Below, one piece after another: positions 17,217 through 35,232 of a stretch of DNA of 47,359 nt; the stretch's first letter is position 1; the number at the start of each line of letters is the position of its first letter. The notes under the pieces are model-generated. The model was not told the origin of the DNA, made no database searches, and saw only the letters and a list, made by a program, of their open reading frames with translations. Origin of the DNA: Chitinophagaceae bacterium (GTDB lineage: Bacteria; Bacteroidota; Bacteroidia; Chitinophagales; REEL01); NCBI GenBank assembly GCA_007695095.1, contig REEL01000062.1, positions 1-47,359 on the forward strand. Direction: 5' to 3'. The position numbers were made by a program, and so were the translations under genes.

Positions 17217-19640
17217 TTAAAATTCATTTTCCACACCGAAACGTTCTCTTTCCTGACGCTCTAATTTTCTGTTTAAGCCAAGCACTTTACTAACTTTCAA
17301 ACCGGTAAAGAAATACCAATCTCTGTTAGCATCTCCTCTTTTATTATTAAGGAAGTTTTTATGGTACGGCTTATTTGGATTTCTTACCATTGAAGGGTCT
17401 ATCAATATATCAACTACGTCATGAGTAACCCCGTAAACATCTGTAACTTGTCCATAATCGGGTGCATTTGCTTTAATAGCATCAAATGTACCGTCTTCGT
17501 CCAGATAGAAGAATCCACCAATATCATCCAGGTAATCTGTAAACGTAAATCTAAAGCCTAACTCAGCTGTTAGTACAAAAGACTTCTGAATGATGAAATT
17601 TAAGTTAACACCAAAGGGTACACTAATTTGTCTTAAACTATAATGATCTCTTCCTGCACCCGGTACATTTTGACCTTCAGTACCAATTGGATGTAAATCA
17701 TACCATTCATCAGTAAATACATGCTCACCCAACTCATCATTTAAGCCCAAATAAGCTCTTGCCTGAGGATTAAATTGATATGCTGCTATACCTGCGAATA
17801 AAGATGGAGCAAATCTTTCTCCTCGATTAACGCCATATTGCATCAGATACCATTCTATATTTGCTGAAATTTCATAAATTGGAGATCTGAAATGGACTGC
17901 TCTTCTTACTCTATTAGGATCTAATTCATTAAAGTCTGTTCCGGAAAGCATACCATATCTAAAACCGAGAGATGCGCTAAACCATCTGGATATATTATAT
18001 TTACCAAAAATACCAAAGGCAAGATTGAACTCATCCTGATCTATATTCGCTCTGGTCAACTCCCCTGCATAATTAGAAAGACCTAAAAATAAACCTACTT
18101 CAAAAGTTCTTGCAAGAGATACATAAGAGCCTAAGTAAGATAAATCACCCACTTCAGATAAACTCTCTAAAGTTCTCAGTGAAGCAGCAGATGGTTCGAA
18201 TGAACTTCTTTGACTTACAACATCACCTGTTGAGGCAAACTGAGGAACAAAACCCTCTCTATACAGACGACTGTATCTGTTTACTGCCTGAAGCTGTCCG
18301 ATTGGAAATTCAGGTACTTCAAAACCTTCCTCATCTACAAAATTATAGAATACAATATATCCGAGTTTGTTTCTTAGGAAATTCGGTTCAGAAACTCTGA
18401 AAGATAGTTTAGTATTATTCTCAGACCATCTGGCTGTGTCAATATCAATATTCTGAACATTTACTTCATTGTTGATTGTATCAAAATACAGAAAATCCAT
18501 TTGATAATCATCAATACTAGTAACCGGTCTGTTGAAGTAAACATCAAAATTGACATTTAGACCGCTTACTTCAGGTAGTTTAGTATAATCATTTATTTCA
18601 ACTCCATCCCAGTCAACCCTGTAAATATGACCATGTACATTTGGTGAAGGTTTTTCCAAAATCGGTTCAGCTATCAATAATGGAAGGTTATTATTATGAT
18701 AGAAGTGATCGAAAGTTGAGTAAATATAGTTTTTGTCTTTAGATCTAAAGAAATTTTCTGAAACGTTAAAAGATTCTCCATTACCTTGTATACCAAAGCT
18801 AATCTCTCTTATAATACTATCAGTAGATGCATTTATCTGGTAATTATTAAAAATAGAATTGCGTTTGATTGAGGCAAGGTAAGCCTTATCTTCATTGTCG
18901 AACAAACCAAAAACCGGTGTATTCGATGGGATTCCTTTGTCAACACCATATACAACATTGTTAGTAATCAGGTTTTCAGTAAAGTTTAACTCAAGGTGGT
19001 CACTTTGGAAATCTTCTATATAAATACTACCCCAATTATTTACAAAATTATTTCTGTTAAAAGTTACCTCAGCTTTTTGGTTAAAATCACCGGTACCAAC
19101 TGTTGAAGGCATTTGAATTAAAATTGAAGATTGCCCGGACTGTATATCCTGAAAAACTGTATTCTCGACTTTAACGGTTTTTCTAAACCAGTTTGATTCA
19201 AGTAAAAGCGGCTTCTCCAACTCAGTAAATTTTGCATATCGTATATTGATTGCAGAACCTCTATTGCCTCTAACAACTATACCGTCACCTCTAAAAACCT
19301 CATCCTTACTTAAAAGATGAACGAAATTATTTGCTGTTCCATTTATATTTAAACCGCCTTCAACTACCAAAGTTGTATTAGGGGAGAAAATCAATGTTAC
19401 ATTTTCAGGAATTGTTAATGTTGCTTCAGAAGATACGCGTACATTATGCTGTATCAAATACTTCTGACCACTTGTCAGGCTTCTGTTTTCATCAATAAAT
19501 CCCTCTAATACAGTTGCATTAGACAAATCCAAATGATGACTTGCTTCTGATTTAAGTGGAATGAATATAGTAACAAACAGACTCGTAAAGAGTAGATATC
19601 TGAGCGTTATTAACATTTTTATAGAATTTAAACTTTTCAT
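17217..19640 (-). CDS. Parallel beta-helix protein fused to a PorG-type (DUF6089) outer-membrane barrel
   Basis: The 807-residue exported protein has a signal peptide (about 1-33, ending SEAS). Residues 50-330 look like a right-handed parallel beta-helix: regular short strands with Asn/Ile ladders (LTIPENVTLIFSPNTTLVVEG, then FNRNNFVNNW and LNFTENLITNNVVYG). A beta-sandwich-like linker (about 345-450) follows. Residues 513-807 match the DUF6089/PorG barrel: FEVGLFLGLSNYAGEL, RYGMLSGTDF, VHFRSPIYEI, FNPQARAY, HPIGTEGQN, then FTFTDYLDDIGGFFY. PorG is an outer-membrane partner of the T9SS PorK/PorN ring and is normally a stand-alone barrel of about 220-300 residues. The gene follows gldM by 30 bp as the third gene of the gldL-gldM cluster. 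With the N-terminus periplasmic, the beta-helix would face GldM; that is inference. Confidence 0.82.
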   Translation of the reverse strand: MKSLNSIKMLITLRYLLFTSLFVTIFIPLKSEASHHLDLSNATVLEGFIDENRSLTSGQKYLIQHNVRVSSEATLTIPENVTLIFSPNTTLVVEGGLNINGTANNFVHLLSKDEVFRGDGIVVRGNRGSAINIRYAKFTELEKPLLLESNWFRKTVKVENTVFQDIQSGQSSILIQMPSTVGTGDFNQKAEVTFNRNNFVNNWGSIYIEDFQSDHLELNFTENLITNNVVYGVDKGIPSNTPVFGLFDNEDKAYLASIKRNSIFNNYQINASTDSIIREISFGIQGNGESFNVSENFFRSKDKNYIYSTFDHFYHNNNLPLLIAEPILEKPSPNVHGHIYRVDWDGVEINDYTKLPEVSGLNVNFDVYFNRPVTSIDDYQMDFLYFDTINNEVNVQNIDIDTARWSENNTKLSFRVSEPNFLRNKLGYIVFYNFVDEEGFEVPEFPIGQLQAVNRYSRLYREGFVPQFASTGDVVSQRSSFEPSAASLRTLESLSEVGDLSYLGSYVSLARTFEVGLFLGLSNYAGELTRANIDQDEFNLAFGIFGKYNISRWFSASLGFRYGMLSGTDFNELDPNRVRRAVHFRSPIYEISANIEWYLMQYGVNRGERFAPSLFAGIAAYQFNPQARAYLGLNDELGEHVFTDEWYDLHPIGTEGQNVPGAGRDHYSLRQISVPFGVNLNFIIQKSFVLTAELGFRFTFTDYLDDIGGFFYLDEDGTFDAIKANAPDYGQVTDVYGVTHDVVDILIDPSMVRNPNKPYHKNFLNNKRGDANRDWYFFTGLKVSKVLGLNRKLERQERERFGVENEF

Positions 19641-19670
19641 CGCAAGTAATATTTAGTCTTTAGTTAATTT

Positions 19671-21311
19671 TTATTGAATATTGATAATTAGAGGGCTAAT
19701 GTACTCATTAGTTCCATCCGGTCCTTTAATATGTATATTATCAAACACATAGATATCTCCTGGCTGAGCTAAGTCAATAAGCTCTCTGGATTTTCCTGAA
19801 AAGTATGACCCCTGAACAGATTCACGAAAGATTCCTAACCCTTCTCCATTTATATAAACTACTTCATAGTCTATGATTCTATAACGAGGGTCGATATCTA
19901 AATCTTCCAGTTTGACAGACAACCCATTCTGTAATTTGAATAATGAAGCAGCGAATTCTCCACTGGTTCGGTTATGTATTTGTGCCACAGGCTTAGGTAA
20001 GTTTCTGGCAACAAAACTTTGTTCGGCTACTGTTCTCTTTGTTCCATCCGCTCTGGTCTCTGTCAATGATATTCTGACTCTTCCCTGACGATTAACTCTT
20101 GCATAATATTGATCTCCAACTTTGTGAAGCTCACCATTTGAAATTTCAACATTATACTCTCTGTCTTCTCTACTTGGTTTAACTATATTAATCGGATTAT
20201 CGACACCTATATATAGATTATTAAACTTCTCTTGATTTATAACCGGTTTTTGCTCTTTTACTTCATACTTTATTTCGAAAGGTCTTTCAGCAGTACGTCT
20301 CATATCAAATGTAAGATCTCCGTCTTCAGTTACTTCCTCAAAGTCAGTATCAGAAGGCATCTTTTGAACAAGACCTCTAACAACTTTTTCCCCCGGACTG
20401 TCAGTATCCAACTCAATTCTCGCGACGCCATCCTGAAATTGAACTCTCCGCTGAACTCTTCCGGCTTCATCGTAAATAATAACTTCAAAATCTGACTCAA
20501 GTTCTTTCTTAGACACAGAAGGCAACCGAACTAATGCAATTCCTTCTTCGCCTAAATTATAAGTATCACCCGGTAGTCCCTTATCTATAAACACATCTTC
20601 GATTAATGGGTCTTCCGTAACAGTATCCATTACAATTACCCCCGGAAACTCCAAATAACTCTCAGATAAATCATGTAATGAACTCATTACTGCAGATTCT
20701 GCAATTCTCAAGTCATGCTGAAACTTAGATAAAATGGTAACTACAGCAGCTAATGGAACATTATCGAAATAGTATTTTTCCCATTCGAAGACAATGCCCG
20801 TAGACTTTCTTAAAGTATCTGTAGTCACTAAAATGGTATCCAGCATTCTTCTTTGCTGATCACCAAGTATCAACATAAGTTCCGACTTAGCTTCTTCAAT
20901 AGTTGATTTAATTTCAGATGCTTTGCCGGATCGATAAAGCATTCTGGTCGGAAGTAAGGGATCCAAACCACTATCTAAGTGACCATGCCTGTTATAGCCT
21001 CCTGACTCTTCCACAAGTCTGACCTTAATTTCATCTAGATACTCAATTGCTCCACGTGTAATTTCACGGGTTCTAACTATCTGACTAAAAGCCGGACCAA
21101 AACGTGCTGAATCATATTCACTTATGGTTTGGACTGCTTTTAACACTTTCTCATTACTCGCATCAAGCCGGTAATTCGCTCTTTCTAAAGAACGATTTAA
21201 ATCTGTATAGGTTTCGATAAACTCCACCGGCATAATGAGAACAACATAGGCTATAAGTAAAAGGTAAAGCAAATTTACCAGTCGTTGCCTTAATGGATTA
21301 GTTGTTTTCAT
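19671..21311 (-). CDS. gldM: GldM/PorM-family motor subunit
   Basis: The 546-residue protein has a short cytoplasmic N-terminus, a single membrane helix (about 14-33) and a large periplasmic region. NPLRQRLVNLLYLLLIAY aligns with the GldM start PRQKMINLMYL, and Arg8 falls at the Arg implicated in the GldLM proton path. The helical first periplasmic part is followed by beta domains. The C-terminal domain has the family ending: SGEFAASLFKLQNGLSV, then DIYVFDNIHIKGPDGTNEY. GldM dimers form the rod from the inner membrane to the outer-membrane ring of the T9SS. Normal neighbours gldK and gldN are absent; a beta-helix/PorG gene takes the downstream place. Sequence drift from canonical GldM suggests a specialised paralogue. 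Confidence 0.9.
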   Translation of the reverse strand: MKTTNPLRQRLVNLLYLLLIAYVVLIMPVEFIETYTDLNRSLERANYRLDASNEKVLKAVQTISEYDSARFGPAFSQIVRTREITRGAIEYLDEIKVRLVEESGGYNRHGHLDSGLDPLLPTRMLYRSGKASEIKSTIEEAKSELMLILGDQQRRMLDTILVTTDTLRKSTGIVFEWEKYYFDNVPLAAVVTILSKFQHDLRIAESAVMSSLHDLSESYLEFPGVIVMDTVTEDPLIEDVFIDKGLPGDTYNLGEEGIALVRLPSVSKKELESDFEVIIYDEAGRVQRRVQFQDGVARIELDTDSPGEKVVRGLVQKMPSDTDFEEVTEDGDLTFDMRRTAERPFEIKYEVKEQKPVINQEKFNNLYIGVDNPINIVKPSREDREYNVEISNGELHKVGDQYYARVNRQGRVRISLTETRADGTKRTVAEQSFVARNLPKPVAQIHNRTSGEFAASLFKLQNGLSVKLEDLDIDPRYRIIDYEVVYINGEGLGIFRESVQGSYFSGKSRELIDLAQPGDIYVFDNIHIKGPDGTNEYISPLIINIQ

Positions 21312-21376
21312 TTTTTTTTATCTTATTTAATAAAGGTATTCCTATTTCTAAGTCTAATTAATAGTCAGAAGAATAT

Positions 21377-21892
21377 TTAGTCTAAATTCTTTCCGCCCAT
21401 TACATTCAATACTTTATCATATTGCTTAGACATATCAGACATACTTTTATTCAGTCTGTTAATTTCACGTTCAAAATTTTCAGAAGAAACACGCATTCTG
21501 TCAATCTGCTCATTCAAATGAGCCAGATTAGATGTTTCAGACATTTTGTGAACATTGTTCTCCAGCTTCTCAATGCTATTTGTCAAACGTTCAATAATCA
21601 TAGGGTCAACATTTGCTTTTTGGACCATTTCTTCTAATTGTTCCACACCTGTTGGCTGGTCTGTAGTCAATTGAGGAAAAAGTTTATCCCATTTGTATTC
21701 TTTTTCCGGTCTTTTTAACTCAAAAGCTGAAATAAAGAATACTATTGCTTCCGTTGTCAGGCCTATAAATAGCATTTCGTTGGCGTATTGCCAATTTAAG
21801 AATTTGAACATCATACCGGTGATTACTATTGATGCACCGATACCATATGCCATTGTCAAACCGTCTAATTTTCCTTTAACTTTTGCTTCCAT
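21377..21892 (-). CDS. gldL: GldL/PorL-family inner-membrane motor subunit
   Basis: The 171-residue protein has two membrane helices (about 12-32 and 39-58). These are followed by the family motif SAFELKRPEKEYKWDKLFPQL, split at the membrane exit, and a long cytoplasmic coiled coil (about 85-171). Glu48 in IGLTTEAIVFF aligns with the essential membrane Glu (Glu49 of Flavobacterium johnsoniae GldL) that is thought to carry protons. GldL pentamers surround a GldM dimer and drive rotation. The gene lies 65 bp upstream of gldM. It is somewhat shorter than many GldL proteins, mostly in the coiled-coil tail. No gldK precedes it; the upstream gene encodes a TPR protein. Confidence 0.92.
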   Translation of the reverse strand: MEAKVKGKLDGLTMAYGIGASIVITGMMFKFLNWQYANEMLFIGLTTEAIVFFISAFELKRPEKEYKWDKLFPQLTTDQPTGVEQLEEMVQKANVDPMIIERLTNSIEKLENNVHKMSETSNLAHLNEQIDRMRVSSENFEREINRLNKSMSDMSKQYDKVLNVMGGKNLD

Positions 21893-22238: not shown

Positions 22239-22733
22239 TTATTGACAATATTTACGTATCATTTCATCTGCACGCCTCTCTCCAAGGTTTCTGGACCTCA
22301 GCCAATCCGCACAGGCAGCGGATTGGGAACCGGTTAGCTGCTTGGCACTTCCTGAAAGAAAATAATTAATTCCGTTAATGTATTCTGTTAAAAATTCTGT
22401 TGTTTCACTATTATGGTAAATATTTTCTTTAACATTTACAAAAAGTGCCGCATTAAAATCGTTTACTGCAAGAAAATACTGATTAAGTTCATAATAACAA
22501 CTCCCTCTATGGCTAAGTGCTAAGTGCATTAGGTCGCTATTAGAAGGACTGCTTCGAATAACTTCTGTTAAAAGCGGAAGGGCTGATTCAAAATCTTCCG
22601 TGTTTAAAAAATCTAATGCATTATTATAAGTAACCAACAATTCCTCTATTTTATCTTCTTCTGCTTTAAGCTCTGCAATTGCTATAAACATAATTAATAT
22701 AACCGGGGAGAATGTAAAAATTATTTTCTGCAT
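22239..22733 (-). CDS. Exported TPR-like repeat protein
   Basis: The 164-residue protein has a signal peptide (about 1-24, ending LKAEE) and two or three helix pairs of TPR type (NNALDFLNTEDFESALPLL, then HRGSCYYELNQYFLAVNDF). It ends with SAACADWLRSRNLG and MIRKYC, a tail often seen in Bacteroidota TPR proteins that probably forms a disulfide. It would work in the periplasm as a binding scaffold. It is on the same strand as gldL but 346 bp upstream, so a shared job with the motor is possible but not shown. A hairpin terminator at 22766-22799 separates it from the tRNA gene. Confidence 0.75.
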   Translation of the reverse strand: MQKIIFTFSPVILIMFIAIAELKAEEDKIEELLVTYNNALDFLNTEDFESALPLLTEVIRSSPSNSDLMHLALSHRGSCYYELNQYFLAVNDFNAALFVNVKENIYHNSETTEFLTEYINGINYFLSGSAKQLTGSQSAACADWLRSRNLGERRADEMIRKYCQ

Positions 22734-32877: not shown

Positions 32878-35232
32878 TTATTGCAATAATATTTTCTTTT
32901 GTAAAAGTTGTGATTTAGCTGATTGAAAGTTAAGCAAAAATAATCCTTTAGGTAAATTCACTACATTTATTTTATGAAAAGTTTCACCCGCTGGAACAGC
33001 TCCATCCAAAACTATTCTTCCGGTTAAGTCAGAAAGCTCATAAGTTATTCTGTTTTCGGGCACTTTATCAAATTCAATATAAAAATATTCTTCTGCCGGA
33101 TTCGGATAAACATTTAAATTTAAGATTTGACCATCGACCAAAATCTCATGCACAGACGTAGTATCATAAAAACAACTACCATCATCGACATTTGCTTCCG
33201 GATTAAAGTTTGTTGCCAATTCATCTGTACAGCCATGAACAGCTTCAACACAAGACCCATCGTCCATATTTGCGTCTGCATCAAAATTTAAAGCATCCGG
33301 ATCTGTACACCCGTAATTCAAATCCATCTGGATTGCCCCAAATACGTTTAACTTTCCCCAACCATAAGTTTCATCAGGTAAAAGAGGAGGTGTAAAATCA
33401 TCTTCAAGAGCTGATAAAGTAATAGCGTCTTTCACTTCAAAATACCAGGCATCTGGATTTTTCTGTAAATAAAGTGCCGCTGCTCCGGCTACTTTTGGTG
33501 CTGCTAAAGAGGTTCCCCCATTTGTGCTGTGCATGCCCTCCGGGGCAACTCTATTTGCTTGTCCTGAAGAAATTAAAGCATTTACATTGGTCAGATTTCC
33601 GGTTGCCATTGTTCTGGTTCCTGAAGCAGTAATATCCGGTTTTACCCGTTCATCTCTGGTTGGGCCTCTGCTGGACGTCGGATGTATAATTCCAACCGGA
33701 TTTTCAGCTACTACCGTTGTTGTTCCATTAAAATTTTCATGAGCATATCGAGCTTCTGCATTTCCAACTGTAATCACTTTATCTGAACAAGTAAAGCTAC
33801 TTACTAAGGTTTTAGCATTATCAGGAAGTTTATAATTTACAATTTCCGGTACAATAGAGGCCGGAGGCAAACCAAATTCTACCATGTTAGAATGCCCCAT
33901 AATACTTTGTGAGCTCCAAATATCTATCCTGCCGTCTCCGGTTGCTATAAATCGCCACAAATCTGTTGTATTGGCAGGATTTACTTCTATCTCCACTTTA
34001 TACATATGCCCTTGGTGCCTTACTGTTAAAATAACAGCTCCCACAAAAGCTCCCTGATGATAAATAGCTCTTGAGATAGTTTGTTGATCTCCGGGATTTA
34101 AGTTTACAAATTGATTTTTAACATTAAAAAATTCTGTTTGACCTAAAAACTGAAAGCTTGTATCATCCGCACCTATTGAAAACCATACATCATTTAAGTC
34201 AGCAGTATCGGCAAACAATTCATAATACACAACATTAAACGTAGAGGTATATCTGAACCAGGTAAATGTAGTATCTGCTGTCACATCATACCCAAGGTGA
34301 TAATTAACATTTCCACGGTTTCCGGCTGCCGCAACCAGTACCCTACCTGCTCTTTCTTCCAGCATGTTTTCGATTAGTCTGGCGGGTAAATCCCGGGCAT
34401 CTCTTGAACCGTAATATGTACCAAGGCTGGCATTTATTACTACCGGCTTACCCATAGCATCTGCCTTTCTAAAAATATATTCAACAGCATCCACAAACTT
34501 AGATAAAGTAGGATCCTGATAATCATAAGCTACTATTATCAAATCAGATTTTGGAGCAACTCCTTTATAGTTCTCAACTTCCCTACCGCTTGAGGCGGCA
34601 GCTCCTGTTACATGCGTGCCGTGACCGAAACGATTTGCAGGTTCGCTATGGTTTACATTTCCGTTCTCAAAATCCTGAAAAGTCCACTCCGTTCCATAAA
34701 TATAAGGCATAGGTGGATTTAAATTGCTTGCATTCTGATCCCACATATATTTTATTCGGCTGCCATTTTCATCTTTAAAGTCTTCGTGATTATAAAAAAT
34801 TCCGGCATCTATAATTCCAACGACAACCCCTTCGCCTTTATAAGCCATATCAAGGGGACTCACTCCATCGTGAACCTGATTTACATTGTGAATAATCAAT
34901 GAAGTGTCCATTAATTGCACCAAAGGTTTATTTCCTTTGTCAATTTGTTTTATAAAAGCCTCTTGGCGTAAACTTTCAATATTTTCTGCTTTAATTTGAA
35001 CTGCAGCTATTCCATTATAATGATACTTAATAAATCCATCATTACTGCCCAGCCAATTTTCCAGTTCATTTATATCTCCCTCAACAAAAATATGTTCAAT
35101 GCCACGAACTACTTTTTCCCCATCGGCTGTATGCAATTGTTGGTTTTTATAAAAAAATACCGGCACATCCTCTGATGCATATAGAGAAAAAAGTATGGAA
35201 ACAAAGAAATAAGTAAGAAGTAATCTTATCAT
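32878..35232 (-). CDS. Secreted subtilisin-family (S8) protease with T9SS type A sorting domain
   Basis: The 784-residue protein has a signal peptide (about 1-20), a prodomain (about 25-120) and an S8 catalytic domain with Asp142 (VGIIDAGIFYNHED), His204 (RFGHGTHVTG) and Ser575 (GGTSLAAPKVAGAAA). A beta insertion lies at about 320-460. Two tandem calcium-type repeats, starting GCTDPDALNF (641) and GCTDELATNF (667) and each closing DDGSC, follow. The last 75 residues are a type A T9SS sorting tail (VYPNPAEEYFYIEF ... LPKGLFLLNFQS ... KKILLQ). It is thus exported by Sec, then through the T9SS, and likely anchored or released at the surface. All catalytic residues are present. It is direct evidence of T9SS use in this organism. 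Confidence 0.96.
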   Translation of the reverse strand: MIRLLLTYFFVSILFSLYASEDVPVFFYKNQQLHTADGEKVVRGIEHIFVEGDINELENWLGSNDGFIKYHYNGIAAVQIKAENIESLRQEAFIKQIDKGNKPLVQLMDTSLIIHNVNQVHDGVSPLDMAYKGEGVVVGIIDAGIFYNHEDFKDENGSRIKYMWDQNASNLNPPMPYIYGTEWTFQDFENGNVNHSEPANRFGHGTHVTGAAASSGREVENYKGVAPKSDLIIVAYDYQDPTLSKFVDAVEYIFRKADAMGKPVVINASLGTYYGSRDARDLPARLIENMLEERAGRVLVAAAGNRGNVNYHLGYDVTADTTFTWFRYTSTFNVVYYELFADTADLNDVWFSIGADDTSFQFLGQTEFFNVKNQFVNLNPGDQQTISRAIYHQGAFVGAVILTVRHQGHMYKVEIEVNPANTTDLWRFIATGDGRIDIWSSQSIMGHSNMVEFGLPPASIVPEIVNYKLPDNAKTLVSSFTCSDKVITVGNAEARYAHENFNGTTTVVAENPVGIIHPTSSRGPTRDERVKPDITASGTRTMATGNLTNVNALISSGQANRVAPEGMHSTNGGTSLAAPKVAGAAALYLQKNPDAWYFEVKDAITLSALEDDFTPPLLPDETYGWGKLNVFGAIQMDLNYGCTDPDALNFDADANMDDGSCVEAVHGCTDELATNFNPEANVDDGSCFYDTTSVHEILVDGQILNLNVYPNPAEEYFYIEFDKVPENRITYELSDLTGRIVLDGAVPAGETFHKINVVNLPKGLFLLNFQSAKSQLLQKKILLQ

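Follow-up and report, generated by a model that had tools for sequence, protein, structure and literature searches.

A second GldL-GldM set encoded beside a predicted beta-helix/PorG-type barrel fusion protein in a Chitinophagaceae bacterium

The gldL-gldM-F locus and its products

The window analysed here is an entire 47-kb contig (47,359 nucleotides) of a Chitinophagaceae bacterium. On its minus strand (21892-17217), three genes follow one another in the order gldL-gldM-F in an operon-like arrangement, with gaps of 65 bp between gldL and gldM and of 30 bp between gldM and F. They encode a GldL paralogue of 171 amino acids (21377..21892), a GldM paralogue of 546 amino acids (19671..21311), and an 807-residue fusion protein, F (17217..19640). 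The preliminary description of this DNA had noted that only L and M of the motor genes are present, and indeed neither gldK nor gldN is found among the annotated open reading frames neighbouring the trio. The flanking reading frames are ordinary by Pfam, encoding saccharopine-dehydrogenase-like and TPR proteins, a deoxynucleoside kinase, and a tRNA synthetase. The TPR gene at 22239 was ruled out as a fourth member since it has no homologue at other trio loci, and promoter-like TAnnTTTG motifs 5' of gldL were unconvincing because the DNA is too AT-rich. Elsewhere in the window, 32878-35232 (minus strand) encodes a subtilase that carries the T9SS sorting domain Por_Secre_tail at its C terminus and is an ordinary T9SS substrate. 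The segment 40130-44674 (plus strand) encodes a 541-residue FGE-sulfatase-domain protein, of the same family as GldK and GldJ yet without a GldK match, followed by a 961-residue fn3/PKD protein.

The window GldL passes the cutoffs of both TIGR03513 (104.4 versus 68.3 bits) and Pfam GldL_N (PF22827; 89.5 versus 24 bits, E 1.6e-25). It combines the GldL_N membrane domain with a short cytoplasmic coiled-coil part and is thus shorter than the canonical copy (279 residues). When aligned to chain G of PDB 6ys8, its Glu48, which is invariant, corresponds to the Glu49 of transmembrane helix 2 that is essential for secretion and gliding in Flavobacterium johnsoniae (PMC8986121). Its Glu58 corresponds to F. 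johnsoniae Glu59, required for SprB movement and dispensable for secretion (PMC8986121). The canonical GldL of the window's genome has no glutamate at the latter position. At L003 (8144-8983), L073, L074, L075, and L078 the canonical GldL lacks it, whereas the core trio GldL proteins keep it. A glutamate also occupies this position in Porphyromonas gingivalis PorL. P. gingivalis is non-gliding, and we therefore take this residue as a clue only. In GldM, Arg8 and Tyr16 are invariant in both trio and canonical copies. Judged from these alignments, the trio GldL and GldM retain the proton-path residues.

GldM is predicted from Pfam matches and AlphaFold2 (AF2) secondary structure to have one N-terminal transmembrane helix followed by periplasmic domains that include D1, D3, and D4. 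Its matches to GldM_1st (E 1.4e-25), GldM_3rd (6.8e-11), and GldM_4th (6.9e-14) all exceed the Pfam cutoffs, the last of these bearing out the earlier claim that GldM keeps its outer C-terminal domain. The protein falls short of the equivalog cutoff of TIGR03517 (161.5 versus 180 bits); the canonical copy scores 343.4 and the trio copy of genome G048 scores 188.8. D4 identity is 60% within the trio class and 61% within the canonical class, compared to 31% between them. Residues that never vary among the trio copies and occur in no canonical copy account for 18 of 111 positions in D4, 9 of 95 in D3, 17 of 182 in D1, and 2 of 128 in D2, counted over few genomes in which several trio sequences are close to each other. 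The class-specific residues at the D4 tip would fit a changed GldM partner, and we consider them supportive of such a change and not proof of it.

According to the AF2 model, F consists of a signal peptide, a right-handed beta-helix (residues 35-332, 18645..19538), an Ig-like beta-sandwich (residues 333-450, 18291..18644; pLDDT mostly 73-90), a helical linker, an eight-stranded OmpA/PorG-type barrel (residues 506-790, 17271..18125), and a C-terminal helix, all on the minus strand. The monomer model, built from a 10-row alignment, has a mean pLDDT of 66 and a pTM of 0.51, with a block at residues 41-160 reaching 82-94 and parts of 228-288 being low. Predicted strands run from residue 42 to ∼300 in the beta-helix and from 339 to 448 in the sandwich, and eight long barrel strands lie within 513-787. 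Residues ∼40-330 of the model superpose by VIA on the PL6 alginate lyase 7o77 with a Z score of 20.0 (rmsd 3.4, 240 residues aligned), residues ∼506-795 match OmpA-type barrels with Z scores of about 15-17, and the best Foldseek matches are to OmpA (E 1e-5). A search of solved structures with the F profile gave chance matches only (E of at least 0.42). At the sequence level, residues 507-625 match DUF6089 (Pfam, E 5.9e-17), and F matches NCBIfam T9SS_PorG (NF052316) with an E value of 6.2e-29 and 101.3 bits, under the cutoff of 130. The third gene had been read beforehand as a beta-helix joined to a PorG-type barrel, and the model contains both, as its VIA matches to PL6 lyases (Z ∼20) and OmpA-type barrels (Z ∼16-17) indicate.

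Since an OmpA/PorG-type barrel has both ends on the periplasmic side, the beta-helix of F is probably periplasmic. The strongest conservation in F falls at the end of this beta-helix, where 38% of residues 221-332 are invariant among eight sequences, compared to 14% in the barrel, making this region a candidate docking surface.

PorG is disulfide bonded to GldK/PorK through cysteines of its C-terminal tail, and this bonding is needed for secretion (PMC12635249). Cysteine is entirely missing from window F, its C-terminal tail included, and in its relatives cysteines sit in the signal peptide, except for single internal ones and those of the TSP3 region in both F copies of genome G060. Two stand-alone PorG-like proteins encoded in the window's genome (contigs C116 and C143) each have one cysteine only, placed among their final seven residues. 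The ordinary disulfide coupling is thus open to the canonical set, whereas F, by its sequence, has no means of using it.

A second set beside the canonical T9SS motor

GldLM is known to power T9SS secretion and gliding by way of a GldK/N(/J) track. In the assembly that includes the window (186 contigs, 98.6% complete), GldM_4th and GldL_N have exactly two matches each. The other GldL/GldM pair belongs to a canonical porP-gldK-gldL-gldM-gldN cluster on contig C68, and the K, L, M, and N products of this cluster each score above their NCBIfam cutoffs; GldN has a single match genome-wide, and a full SprA translocon gene lies on contig C118. The preliminary description had allowed that gldK and gldN might lie just outside, with no second gldLM copy, in which case the locus would be an ordinary operon that had been split. 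The complete gldKLMN cluster on a separate contig rules this out. The trio is a second, paralogous GldLM set that is separate from the cell's T9SS motor. Likewise, gldK and gldN are not beside gldLM at any trio locus read, both lying in a separate canonical cluster.

The trio recurs in further genomes, in a survey that sampled one genome per species, partly metagenome-assembled genomes (MAGs). When 100 relatives were searched at the protein level, full-length relatives of F (E < 1e-160) are confined, besides the window, to the family f22 and genome G014, and the remaining matches cover the barrel only. A profile of the F N-terminal region run against 398 genomes of the order returned the same set plus divergent proteins in G259 (E 3.7e-51) and G199 (E 5.4e-41). 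Among 395 genomes of the phylum, no full-length F was found except the window's own, and partial matches in larger proteins covered the first coils or about residues 267-448 of F. A contig search with the single F sequence gave no match; the same search with the F alignment gave six MAG contigs, belonging to Chitinophagales/Sphingobacteriales or to unplaced Bacteroidetes.

F is present in all seven f22 genomes examined. The L-M-F order is constant in G048, G035, G021, G060, G089, and G071; in G082, M and F share a 4.9-kb contig, and in G014, the end of M adjoins F at a contig edge. The gldM and F genes share a one-base overlap in several g22 genomes. The flanks vary between genera (sulfate symporter, nitrilase-like, and ClpX genes), which marks the trio as the conserved unit, and the convergent saccharopine-dehydrogenase-like neighbour common to the window and the g22 genomes suggests that the trio was inherited vertically from a common ancestor of the window's family and f22. 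The divergent trios of G199 and G259 belong to another family, their F being ∼26% identical, and both genomes also have their own gldKLMN. Two variants stand apart in layout: G060 carries two tandem F genes (L070 6489-12556), both with TSP3-type repeats past the last barrel strand, and the trio GldL of G259 (L136 5702-7255) has 517 residues, of which ∼450 beyond GldL_N have no Pfam match.

In maximum-likelihood trees, the trio GldL proteins, including that of G199, form one clade (100/100), as do the core trio GldM proteins (100/99). The GldM proteins of G199 and G259 sit on long branches whose joining to the core is unsupported (61/0), and no placement was obtained for a divergent GldM-like protein of G041. 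The canonical copies of the G199 and G259 genomes have much shorter branches than their trio counterparts, which indicates faster evolution of the trio than of the T9SS set there. For the close pair G035/G071 (dS ∼0.4), omega is 0.057 for M, 0.039 for L, and 0.039 for F; many other pairs are saturated in dS, and omega read at unsaturated dS is 0.04-0.06. By these ratios, the trio genes are under purifying selection. We are highly confident that the trio is a real, old, and separate GldLM set having an outer-membrane partner of its own.

A possible direct force path and its alternatives

We propose that the trio may be a second, self-contained, proton-driven trans-envelope motor of the GldLM kind that works apart from the cell's T9SS motor. 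GldL and GldM would form the inner-membrane motor, in a 5:2 ratio by homology, and the GldM shaft would span the periplasm. Its D4 tip would act directly on F and not on a GldK/GldN track with disulfide-bonded PorG. The beta-helix and Ig-like domain of F would hang in the periplasm under the eight-stranded outer-membrane barrel and replace the GldK/GldN track as the load, so that F would be load platform and PorG-type barrel in a single chain. As output, F or its cargo might move laterally or rotate in the outer membrane. The trio suggests a shorter and apparently undescribed force path from the inner to the outer membrane.

A separate motor whose GldM acts directly on F without K or N is our best explanation, and we consider it an evenly balanced proposition. 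The fuller version is one that we hold only tentatively and a little short of even: a pared-down rotary machine that spans the envelope and stands outside the T9SS, in which GldLM drives a single outer-membrane protein, a beta-helix stands in for the GldK/GldN track, disulfide coupling is dispensed with, and the function is novel. In favour of direct action are the canonical set elsewhere in the genome, the constant company of L, M, and F, the separate clades, the class-specific D4 residues, the retained motor residues, the missing tail cysteine, the strong conservation at the end of the beta-helix, and the purifying selection. Several observations count against direct action of GldM on F. The canonical GldN of the same cell could be shared, the window D4 is still recognisably GldM_4th, the confidence of the F model is moderate, and the GldM proteins of G199 and G259 group with the core only weakly. 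In addition, the PorM tip has been modelled in the PorN cleft (PMC12635249).

Sharing of the canonical track is indeed the main rival. The trio would then be an accessory T9SS or gliding motor that still pushes the canonical GldK/GldN, with F a specialised PorG-like client adding force or a substrate-specific step. The retained D3-D4 tip of the trio GldM, the PorG family of the F barrel, and the canonical gldKLMN present in those trio genomes that were also read at other loci all speak for this reading, and a shared track is made plausible by the frequent extra gldM copies in the order, several of them paired with gldN. Yet F has no tail cysteine for a disulfide with GldK, D4 has diverged and bears class-specific residues, the trio forms its own clade and its own operon, and the large conserved N-terminal module of F is missing from the genome's stand-alone PorG-like proteins, all of which make an accessory role rather unlikely in our view. 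The order of signal peptide, beta-helix, helical linker, and C-terminal barrel also resembles a type Va autotransporter, with the beta-helix outside as an adhesin or glycan-active domain and the motor powering export or surface movement; weak Foldseek matches to AaaA and EstA and the closeness of the beta-helix to polysaccharide lyases would agree with it. However, the barrel is modelled with 8 OmpA-type strands and not 12 and would be too narrow for a passenger, and N-terminal domains of OmpA-type barrels are normally periplasmic. A PL6-type Lys/Arg pair is also not evident, given that the residues invariant in 10 of 10 F copies include no lysine, which is a weak test. We judge an exported beta-helix quite improbable.

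A housekeeping role like that of Tol or Ton, in which the trio would pass proton-motive force to the outer membrane for integrity or uptake and the beta-helix would touch peptidoglycan or glycan, seems very unlikely. It would fit the presence of F in all examined f22 genomes, the strong purifying selection, and the TSP3-type repeats that end both G060 F copies, such repeats being periplasmic in OprF-like proteins. Against it, no peptidoglycan-binding domain is recognised, no Tol, Pal, or receptor genes are among the flanks checked, and the trio is missing from most of the order. If direct action of GldM on F is true, the GldLM motor class has been reused as a conserved paralogue with its own single-chain outer-membrane load, providing a three-gene system for testing, free of a large ring or track, how force is transferred from GldM to the outer membrane. 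Such direct action would have implications for force transmission by PorG, too, with a PorG-type barrel tied to a periplasmic load by gene fusion and not by a disulfide.

Relation to known systems and other gldM copies

The preliminary description knew of no account of this three-gene set, and our searches of the accessible literature for a non-T9SS GldLM or for DUF6089 gave nothing relevant. GldLM has been reported from Bacteroidetes only (PMC9389320). The trio shares with the T9SS gldKLMN (porKLMN) and PorG the GldL/GldM domain plan, the proton-path residues, and the PorG/DUF6089 barrel, but its operon is without GldK/GldN, its barrel is fused to a beta-helix and an Ig-like domain and has no tail cysteine, and it forms a separate clade present on top of the canonical set. 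F has the eight-stranded barrel and sequence signature of PorG (NF052316, DUF6089) but differs in its length (807 versus about 290-310 residues), its large N-terminal module, its cysteine-free tail, and a score under the family cutoff. With PL6 alginate lyase and chondroitinase B it has in common a right-handed parallel beta-helix (VIA Z ∼20 over 240 residues); unlike them, with which it is 11-16% identical, it has no Pfam lyase match, is joined to an outer-membrane barrel, and is adjoined by motor genes. As in the 5:2 motors MotAB, TolQR, ExbBD, and AglRQS, a proton-driven inner-membrane motor would send force through the periplasm, whereas the load we propose consists of one fused outer-membrane protein.

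Additional gldM genes found elsewhere in the order sit in different gene neighbourhoods and were ruled out as trio members. In G238 (L150 5732-8325), G192 (L151 5999-8488), and G137 (L146 6272-8807), an extra gldM is accompanied by gldN alone, without gldK or gldL, and extra gldM genes stand alone in G009, G103, G075, and G035. Individual T9SS motor genes seem to have been reused commonly in the order. G058 has a second gldL-gldM pair directly behind its gldKLMN cluster (L144 6783-13973). Short proteins of 222-274 residues with the GldM N-terminal domain only are encoded at L068 (7257-8081), L077 (6596-7264), and L079 (5138-5806), those of L068 and L077, in f22 genomes, adjoining genes of the exonuclease/endonuclease/phosphatase family.
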